From: Tupaia tana
Lineage: Eukaryota; Chordata; Mammalia; Scandentia; Tupaiidae
Direction: 5' to 3'
Assembly: GCA_026018925.1 (NCBI GenBank)
Contig: JAKSZU010000004.1
Coordinates: forward strand, 42,844,233-42,908,232
Length of the DNA stretch: 64,000 bases
In this document: one piece after another, positions 36,359 to 38,035 of the stretch
Numbering within the stretch: the stretch's first letter is position 1
How the letters are laid out: each line of letters opens with the position of its first letter
Notes under the pieces: model-generated
What the model saw: the letters and a program-made list of their open reading frames with translations, nothing else
What the model was told of the DNA's origin: nothing
Databases searched by the model: none
Made by a program: the position numbers and the translations under genes

Positions 36359-36536
36359 TAGTAGTGTGGCCTTCTGGACCTCAGTTTTCTTTTTTTTTTT
36401 TTTTCTTTTATTTTTCTTTCTCAGATTAATTACATTTTGCATAAAGTCCCCATTATGATGTATACAATATACATATACATATATAGTTTTCAACAGAGAA
36501 CTCTACATTTTTGGTGTTAAATGGTTCTTCCCTTTG

Positions 36537-36600
36537 CCCCCCATGCCCACTCTCTACCATCCACTCCCTACCACCCACTCCCCACCACCCACTCCCCTCC
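36537..36600. repeat. C-rich 14-bp tandem repeat (G-rich on minus strand)
   Basis: About four units of the type ccactccctaccac lie in the 3' UTR module of the composite element. On the minus (sense) strand this is a G-rich purine tract. L1 3' UTRs typically carry such G-rich polypurine tracts, which can form quadruplexes. Confidence 0.8.
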
Positions 36601-37387
36601 CTTACAGCCTCTGGTATCTACATTTATCCTTTCCACTATCATATCTTCAGATTTTTCTCCTTCTGCCAGAGTGCTGATATATTTTTTTTTCATTGCACAT
36701 CTTTACAGTGTACAGCATGGTTTTTCCCAGTATGAGTATAGTGCACATTAGTAAAGACAATGATATCACCATGTACATCATCATCAGTAAACCACTCTTC
36801 ATCTTTGTGTCTATTAAGTGTGATGTTTGTTCCCTGAATCCCTCCCCTCCGCCCTCCATTACTCATTCCCATTACCTCTCCCATACTGTCTCCAGTATCT
36901 GCAGTTGCCATCCCCGCCACTATACCCTCCAGTTCCTTCACTTTTTTTTTTTTTTCCAATTATCAGCTCATAAAGTTTTTTTGCAATAGGGAACATAGAT
37001 TCTACTCAGGGTTGGGTTAAGGGTGGGTCTTGTGCAGTTCCGCAATTGTAGGTGAGTCTTCATGGGATACAGTTTCAGGAAAGCGGTTCTGGTAAGCAGA
37101 GATGGTTATCAGCCAATGCGGCACAGCATCCATCCTGTGATTACTGGGAATGGTGTTGTGGGGATCGGCAGTGTGAGTCATCCTTGGGTATCTGGCTTCC
37201 TTAAGAATGGTAGAATAGTTCTTGTTTTTCCCTGAGGTAATGCAGGGCTGGTAACCATCATCTTCTCACTGTCCATAGGCAGAGAAAATCCTCCTATACA
37301 ATATATTTCTCAATTGGTTCAAAACAGCCAAAGTCCCTCCCTGTTGCCCACAGTTGCAAGTTCTTAATCCTTGTTTTCGGCTTCAGT

Positions 37388-38035
37388 TTGTCACCCGCGA
37401 CCAGCGACCATGCGCAGGCCCAGGGGCTATGAGCAGGAGCAGGCCCGGCGGCCACGCGCAGGCCCGGCAGCCAGGCTTAGGCCTGGGGGCCACGCGCCGG
37501 CCCGGCGGCCACGTGCCGGCCCGGGGGCCACGCGCTGGCCCGGTGACCACGCTCAGGCCCAGCGGCCGCATGCAGGTGCAGGCCCAGCGGCCACGCACAA
37601 GCCCGGCGGCCACGCGCAGGCACAGGCCCAGGCCCAGCAGCCACACTCAGACCCAGTGGCAACTCGCTGGCCTGGGGCCATGCACAGGCCCGGCGGCCAC
37701 GCGCAGGCCCGGCAACCACGCGCAGGCCCGGTGGCCACGCACAGGCCCACCGGCCACACGCCAGCCCCGAGCATGCGACTGTGCCGGGGACGTCGTGCCA
37801 CCTCCCGCTCGCCTGCCCGGCCAGAGAAAGGAAGGATGGCGACCTCGGCCAGTCTGTGCCGCCGGCCCACGTCGGCACCGAGCGCGGGACACACCCAGTG
37901 CTGGAGAGGCAGTGGGGGCCGGGCGGCCCGGGGCGCGGCACGTGGAGCAGAGGAGAGCCCCGCGCCTGCTGCCGCGCGCAGGCGCAGGCAGGCCGCTGCC
38001 ACCGCCACCGCGCGCGCGCGCAGGCGCAGGCACAG
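37388..38035. promoter_or_regulatory. CpG-island-like 5' part of the composite retroposon
   Basis: This is the only strongly GC- and CpG-rich stretch in the window, with cgcg and ggccacgcg words throughout, set in AT-rich DNA. It covers the VNTR and the single-copy head. By analogy with L1 5' UTRs and SVA elements it could act as an internal RNA polymerase II promoter on the minus strand; that is inference. Long overlapping open frames on both strands here result from stop-codon scarcity in GC-rich DNA. Confidence 0.6.
37417..37762 (-). repeat. 19-bp GC-rich VNTR, about 17 units
   Basis: The unit on the top strand is ggcccggcggccacgcgca (19 bp), with variants at the last base and at positions 6-10. 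Clear units start at 37442, 37461, 37480, 37499, 37518, 37537 and onward to 37744. A few 6-bp partial units (ggagca, ggcaca, ggccca) are interspersed. Since 19 is not a multiple of 3, any reading frame cycles through all three phases, giving a 19-residue protein periodicity with no biological meaning. Confidence 0.93.

Follow-up and report, generated by a model that had tools for sequence, protein, structure and literature searches.

What suits a composite retroposon built around a VNTR to carriage by L1 has been studied from a single origin, because such elements are called hominoid-specific in the sources consulted here, PMC4432496 and PMC7353768. In its account of the four families SVA, LAVA, PVA, and FVA, PMC4432496 describes a 5' region of CT hexamer and Alu-like sequence that they have in common, a VNTR in the center, and 3' ends that differ, and states that L1 mobilizes all four in trans. 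In the passages of PMC5753468 that we cite, the SVA VNTR unit is given as 35 to 50 bp, and HAL1 is described as encoding only ORF1p and as having several separate origins. Here, we describe an insertion in the window (the whole stretch of 64,000 nucleotides that was analyzed) which, with a probability of about 0.92, is a member of a multicopy superfamily of non-autonomous composite retroposons. Members of the superfamily combine a common head-VNTR-mid part with alternative L1/HAL1-type 3' ends.

Modules of the insertion in the window

The insertion occupies positions 36392-38035 on the minus strand, is 1,644 bp long, and carries a TSD and a poly(A) tail (Table 1). Read on the minus strand, the TSD pair is AAGAAAACAGAGGTCCAG / AAGAAAACTGAGGTCCAG. 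This pair is not a chance match, since the best TSD-like match among 20,000 random pairs of window positions spaced 1 to 3 kb apart reached 15, as against 18 bp with one mismatch. A preliminary description of this DNA had reported the TSD, a terminal poly(A) on the minus strand, a GC-rich head, and a 19-bp VNTR, and all of these were recovered, the poly(A) lying behind an AATAAA. Tandem Repeats Finder (TRF) places the VNTR at 37439-37761, with a period of 19 and 17.1 copies, a GC content of 0.79, and a CpG o/e of 0.71. A single-copy module, put at roughly 400 bp in that description, is likewise present and slightly longer, at about 450 bp; we refer to it as mid. The CpG o/e of the whole window is 0.22, compared with 0.93 in the head and 0.71 in the VNTR, and the high values of these two modules are as expected of a young insertion.

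Table 1. Features of the composite insertion in the window, in 5' to 3' order of the element
Feature	Position	Strand	Remark or basis
TSD, 5'-end copy	38036..38053	-	18 bp, one mismatch against 36374-36391
GC-rich head (5' module)	37763..38035	-	GC 0.77, CpG o/e 0.93
VNTR, 19-bp unit, about 17 copies in the window element	37405..37762	-	Tandem Repeats Finder
Mid, non-coding single-copy module of about 450 bp	36956..37404	-	conserved across families; without a long open frame
14-A run, mid/L1a border	36942..36955	-	sequence
L1a, first L1/HAL1-type 3' UTR module	36691..36941	-	matches window 20077-19823 (69%) and HAL1 34979-35316
9-A run, L1a/L1b border	36682..36690	-	sequence
L1b, second L1/HAL1-type 3' UTR module, AATAAA at its end	36405..36681	-	four of five window L1/HAL1 stretches above all shuffles
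Terminal poly(A), after AATAAA	36392..36404	-	sequence
TSD, 3'-end copy	36374..36391	-	partner of 38036-38053

The two 3' modules had been described as L1-type 3' UTRs, and this assignment holds, clearly for L1a and more weakly for L1b. Against four L1/HAL1 3' UTR stretches of the window, L1a scored above all 30 shuffles, the best match being to 20077-19823 (score 176, shuffle maximum 36), and its match to the HAL1 copy at 32560-34780 was weaker (57 versus 42.5 for the shuffles). L1b gave lower scores, yet four of the five window L1/HAL1 stretches still exceeded all shuffles; against the HAL1 copy at 32560-34780 it scored 37.5, below the shuffle maximum of 46. Neither head nor mid has a BLAST match elsewhere in the window, and within the window the VNTR matches itself only. 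A Pfam search with a frame of the head returned nothing convincing. A 7SL/Alu-like origin of the head was rejected, since an Rfam scan of the window copy at E<=1 returned two weak matches, both unrelated, and none to a 7SL/SRP family.

Some neighboring elements may be recorded here. A palindromic element of about 85 bp at 36276-36361, which we take to be mariner-MITE-like, adjoins the 3' TSD of the composite and has relatives at 8425-8492 and 40175-40268. A CpG-rich SINE of about 280 bp with poly(A) occurs at 1108-1388, 17385-17664, 44273-44554, and 62252-62533; it is tRNA-like by eye, its copies are at most 92.6% identical to one another, and no 7SL family was found in the window by Rfam at gathering score. 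The window HAL1 copy, at 32560-35316 on the plus strand, has two successive 3' UTR modules.

Copies and sister families in the host genome

The 2.95 Gb of the host genome were searched with mid, with the head, and with sequences of two related families, Ib and II, that are described below. The first-look candidates (2,825 for mid, 2,625 for the Ib mid, 2,084 for the II junction, and 1,427 for the head) overlap, are loose, and should not be read as copy numbers; the best 40 of each set were scored. Those for mid comprised the window's own copy at 100% and 39 others at 96 to 98%, and of those for the head, 22 lie at mid matches and four more, when read, lead to mid. The mid, Ib, and II lists do not overlap, and together with 18 additional head matches they mark at least 138 distinct scored places. 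Identities and ages rest on these best-scoring matches and are thus biased toward young copies. We read 51 copies, 32 of the window's family (Ia), 8 of Ib, and 11 of II, drawn as 28 of 40 from the Ia list, 8 of 40 from the Ib list, 11 of 40 from the II list, and 4 of the 18 additional head matches. Exact-pattern scans of genome contigs and of viral contigs yielded 0 stretches each.

All 28 loci chosen by mid and read, the window's own included, show the order head, VNTR region, mid, L1a, L1b, as do 4 of 4 loci picked by the head instead, and the head is matched over at least 124 bp in each of the 32 Ia copies. In all three families, mid is directly joined to an L1/HAL1-type 3' UTR (51 of 51 copies read). 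No ORF1 follows head or mid in any of these 51 copies, and no match to HAL1 ORF1 was found in the loci of the 8 Ib copies or in the 4 loci picked by the head. The preliminary description had suggested a genome search with the single-copy module and the head, and had named junctions confined to this one copy as grounds against its proposal. The search instead returned many copies with the same junctions; 32 repeat the module order of the window copy, and most of the copies carry a TSD different from those of the others. Because every Ia copy examined, 32 in all, has this order, we also rejected a second insertion nested at the A-run between mid and L1a.

Separate TSDs were accepted in 33 of the 46 copies tested (20 of 28 Ia, 8 of 10 II, and 5 of 8 Ib) and were not accepted in the other 13 (8 Ia, 2 II, and 3 Ib). 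For Ia, 18 were obtained by a fixed procedure (repeats that link the 5' edge with the poly(A) at a score of at least 13), to which the clear cases L010 and L024 were added. Matches at L020, in a repeat array, and at L027, 322 bp past the tail, are not TSDs and were dropped, and L005, L025, and L026, with scores of 11 to 12, were left uncounted. In a control on family Ia, in which the 5' and 3' sides were taken from two different loci, 10 of 224 trials gave a match. Some accepted TSDs are short or A-rich; those of L007, L019, L045, and L048, for example, are weaker because of their A-richness. Segmental duplication was rejected as the main source of copies on the basis of the separate TSDs, with flanks not compared one by one.

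The A-runs at both internal borders might suggest that the element is a one-off bipartite chimera, formed by a template switch between a cellular RNA and an L1 3' end. We consider this highly improbable. Thirty-two Ia copies have the same borders, and a diverged form of them is found in Ib at separate sites; junctions common to so many copies refute a single template-switch event as the source of the window copy. Template switching may be how the first copy originated, as distinct from what the family is.

The 5' part varies considerably in length. Upstream of a conserved GGGGCTCTCC anchor in the head lie CCTGCG-like short repeats whose length differs between copies. A CT-hexameric repeat is absent from the 5' ends of 20 copies inspected by eye, which have a GC-rich CCTGCG-like start and no CCCTCT run. 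From the end of the head to the start of mid, 27 Ia copies span 36 to 902 bp, with 26 different values. TRF, with which the VNTR was measured in family Ia, calls an array in 26 of these 27 copies (none in L005), with a 19-bp unit, GCGCGTGGCCGCCGGGCCT and rotations, in up to 45.0 copies; for some Ia copies, periods of 38, 57, or 82 bp were reported. L025 was omitted from the VNTR measurements and from the comparisons of head, L1a, and L1b.

The second copy at L025 belongs to a separate young family, Ib. Its mid is 89% identical to that of Ia, and the best 40 scored of the 2,625 candidates match at 97 to 100%. Among the 8 Ib copies read, mid is joined to L1a in all 8, L1b is present too in 7, and a head match in 7; the exceptions are L046, which ends within L1a, and L049, which lacks the head match. 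The A-rich mid/L1a border is present in the Ib copy of L025 as well. L046 has a 17-bp TSD, and its 3' end inside L1a carries another A-tail; this could mean that polyadenylation occurred early or that another type of 3' end exists.

The third family, II, was recognized at L027, where an Ia copy is accompanied by a second composite whose mid joins a HAL1-type 3' UTR at about L027:2060. Its VNTR and mid are 75 to 88% identical to other copies, depending on the stretch, and its mid alone is 89% identical to that of the window. With a 131-bp junction query, the best 40 scored of the 2,084 candidates were L027 and 39 others at 96 to 98%, and the query was covered in full in 38 of the 40. In the fetched copies, mid is joined to the HAL1-type module in 10 of 10, and the L027 head is matched in 7 of 10. 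The 3' end is not uniform: in 8 of 10 (L033-L036, L038-L040, and L042) a second HAL1-type part and then an L1-B-related 3' UTR follow, L027 and L037 have HAL1 modules 1 and 2, and L041 stops soon after HAL1 module 1. The superfamily thus has at least four 3' ends, namely L1a plus L1b, HAL1 modules 1 and 2, HAL1 module 1 alone, and HAL1 parts followed by an L1-B-related 3' UTR. At L041, a further group of HAL1 3' UTR modules (2950-3599), distinct from the first, is located directly behind the short family II copy, an arrangement from which read-through could acquire a longer 3' end. At L035 (3310-3500), about 190 bp separate the L1-B-type part from the accepted TSD, which follows another A-run; this extension is likely a 3' transduction.

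A tree of mid was built from 46 rows, omitting L040, whose mid is split by an insertion. Ib is supported at 1.000, II at 0.985, and the separation of Ib plus II from Ia at 0.993; since the tree is unrooted, Ia may be paraphyletic. The majority strings of mid are 88.9% identical between Ia and Ib, 91.4% between Ia and II, and 89.3% between Ib and II. Within groups, the median difference from the own group is 1.8% for Ia, 1.1% for Ib, and 1.7% for II, or 1.2%, 0.7%, and 2.2%, respectively, at non-CpG positions. At a neutral rate of about 2.2e-9 per site and year, the copies would be a few million years old and the family split some 20 to 30 million years old, rough figures that carry the bias of the best-scoring matches. 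Copies with the same junctions are dispersed, have separate TSDs and poly(A), and form at least three mid groups of very similar members.

These data also bear on the idea that every copy was retrocopied from a host gene for a long non-coding RNA, in the manner of a processed pseudogene, and is not self-propagating. A Pol II transcript could equally give rise to non-coding retrocopies that start CpG-rich, end in poly(A), and are flanked by TSDs. However, the three mid groups (88.9 to 91.4% identical between groups, median differences of 1.1 to 1.8% within) have their own 3' ends, and several source loci would therefore be needed; moreover, 27 Ia copies show 26 head-to-mid distances, and the 5' head is kept in most copies. 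We regard this origin as very improbable.

Resident L1 and HAL1 elements and the source of the modules

A search of the host genome with PF00078 gave 24,721 candidates, and many of the best 150 scored reverse transcriptases lie in open frames of 1,290 or 1,343 residues. Of four L1s that were read (L029-L032), two belong to each of two coexisting intact lineages, A and B, and ORF1 and ORF2 are open in all four. The 5' UTRs of both lineages are GC-rich and consist of tandem monomers that are unrelated to each other, 129 bp long in type A (17 copies in L029) and 158 bp in type B (9 in L032). The 5' region of HAL1 is made of a monomer of about 300 bp (window 32580-32896; a long tandem array in L020). 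On contig C315, four near-best L1 reverse transcriptase matches (148885, 212232, 231284, and 301713) lie within about 155 kb, perhaps reflecting local duplication of an intact L1.

Head, VNTR, and mid have no BLAST match to the four intact L1s at E 1e-3, and in comparisons with the A and B L1s against 40 shuffles, the largest z was 2.6. Against the HAL1 copy of the window, none of the three scored above shuffles. A HAL1 ORF1 fragment gave nothing convincing in Pfam and PDB searches. The preliminary description had offered as its alternative an L1 or HAL1 whose 5' UTR was joined to its 3' UTR, and had held that a head and VNTR identical to the 5' UTR of full-length L1s would speak against a composite. 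The alternative fared poorly, the 5' UTRs of L1 A, L1 B, and HAL1 being unlike head and VNTR: the four intact L1s have 129- or 158-bp monomers there, and HAL1 has monomers of about 300 bp. Because the junctions recur and the L1 and HAL1 5' UTRs are unlike head, VNTR, and mid, we read the element as part of a composite superfamily and not as a lone deleted L1.

A related explanation deserves more weight, although we think it unlikely. The head-VNTR-mid part might be the 5' UTR of an extinct or rare L1 or HAL1 lineage, in which case the element would be an L1 minus both ORFs, one step past HAL1. Such an element would likewise form a mobile family without autonomy, although one that arose within L1 and not by assembly from foreign parts. 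The 3' half of the element is indeed L1/HAL1-type, and HAL1 itself is an ORF-losing L1 derivative that thrives in the host genome. A repeat-bearing 5' UTR is normal there, since the L1 A and B 5' UTRs and HAL1 carry monomers, and the weak scores of mid against the 5' UTRs of A (z 2.6) and B (z 2.4) would allow a distant relation. Against this, neither the A and B 5' UTRs nor the HAL1 copy convincingly match head, VNTR, or mid, and mid leads into the 3' UTR with no intervening ORF1 in 51 of 51 copies. We therefore retain the composite reading, with the element assembled from unrelated parts and presumably working in an SVA-like manner.

As to the 3' modules, use of this genome's own L1 3' UTR had been proposed for the window element. 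The proposal stands for family II, in which the L1-B-related end of eight copies is 78 to 80% identical over 367 to 400 bp to the 3' UTR of intact lineage B. It is not supported for Ia and Ib, since L1a and L1b have no convincing match to the A and B 3' UTRs (z at most 2.5), and their donor is neither of the two intact lineages read. L1b did exceed all 40 shuffles against the A 5' UTR (z 4.6), yet with a score of 36 and no report by BLAST, which we take as low-complexity noise. HAL1-like elements are common near composites (L002, L005, L009, L012, L014-L016, L020, L023, and L028), and several composites are inserted inside HAL1 copies.

Mobilization and comparison with known systems

The L1 endonuclease prefers sites of the TT/AAAA type, T-rich before and A-rich after the cut. 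At the cleavage sites of 28 insertions (20 Ia and 8 II), T is found at -1 in 16 and at -2 also in 16. A occupies position +1 in 26 of the insertions and +2 in 25, an A-richness that is partly procedural because the TSD match can extend into the poly(A). The nick context accordingly resembles what the L1 endonuclease leaves, and the general features of L1-mediated retroposons (TSDs, poly(A), and a TT/AAAA-type site) are all present. Together with the intact L1 ORFs, the TSDs, poly(A), and L1-endonuclease-like sites at these insertions are indirect signs of a probable mobilization by L1 in trans.

In the mechanism that we propose, an internal Pol II promoter in the CpG-rich head and VNTR would drive synthesis of an RNA whose end and polyadenylation are set by the AATAAA in an L1/HAL1-type 3' UTR. 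The resident L1 ORF2 protein, the reverse transcriptase, would then take up this RNA in trans for target-primed reverse transcription. New 3' ends could arise by read-through into neighboring L1/HAL1 3' UTRs, by template switching, or by recombination. The A-runs at the borders, the insertions inside HAL1 copies, and L035 are compatible with read-through; alternatively, the A-rich stretch behind mid may be part of an old 3' UTR.

The preliminary description had proposed an independent SVA-like composite in another mammalian lineage, and the present data support this proposal and extend it by sister families with other 3' ends. Among the matches listed in our search of the open literature, no such family is described outside hominoids; a repeat-database entry is possible. 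On balance, we favor the view that SVA-type composites were no one-time accident in apes. Another placental lineage would then contain an independent, undescribed superfamily, in which one 5' engine of CpG-rich head, VNTR, and mid repeatedly switched between the resident L1/HAL1 UTRs for its 3' end and gave rise to at least three recently amplified lineages, perhaps still mobile. This suggests that SVA-type composite parasites of LINE-1 can evolve more than once. A second origin without a CT hexamer or Alu-like part allows cause to be told apart from ancestry by comparison: the combination of a GC-rich 5' end with a VNTR recurs between the origins, whereas the Alu-like part does not. Furthermore, alternative 3' ends on one 5' part amount to a natural swap series for the role of the 3' end in capture by L1, and young CpG-rich insertions could serve as host promoters or as targets of KRAB-zinc-finger proteins.

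Processed pseudogenes and U6/L1-type chimeras are L1-made insertions of foreign RNA, some of them fused to L1 3' ends, and are usually single events. The composite differs from them in that many copies, including those of diverged subfamilies, have the same junctions. With HAL1, it has in common that it is non-autonomous and has an L1-type 3' UTR, which in family II is HAL1-type. HAL1, however, is an L1 derivative that encodes ORF1p and has a 5' region of monomers of about 300 bp, whereas the composite has a different 5' part and no ORF, and hence lacks the ORF1p without ORF2 that defines HAL1. It resembles LAVA, PVA, and FVA of gibbons in combining one common 5' part and VNTR with alternative 3' ends, and the "L" of LAVA is also LINE-1 derived; the CT-repeat/Alu-like part that these families have in common with SVA was not found in the composite, in a comparison of architecture. 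The differences from SVA are the same lack of a CT hexamer or Alu-like region, a VNTR unit of 19 bp compared with the 35 to 50 bp given for SVA in the cited part of PMC5753468, and a 3' end from L1/HAL1-type UTRs where that of SVA is from HERVK10. The likeness to SVA lies in a non-autonomous element with a GC-rich 5' part, a variable VNTR, an unrelated 3' module, and several subfamilies, as well as poly(A), TSDs, and L1-type target sites. In terms of the VNTR composites as a class, a variable GC-rich VNTR (measured in Ia) and variant 3' ends are present along with the insertion features, and the CT hexamer and Alu-like region are absent; the superfamily is therefore SVA-like in its presumed working and stands outside the SVA lineage.
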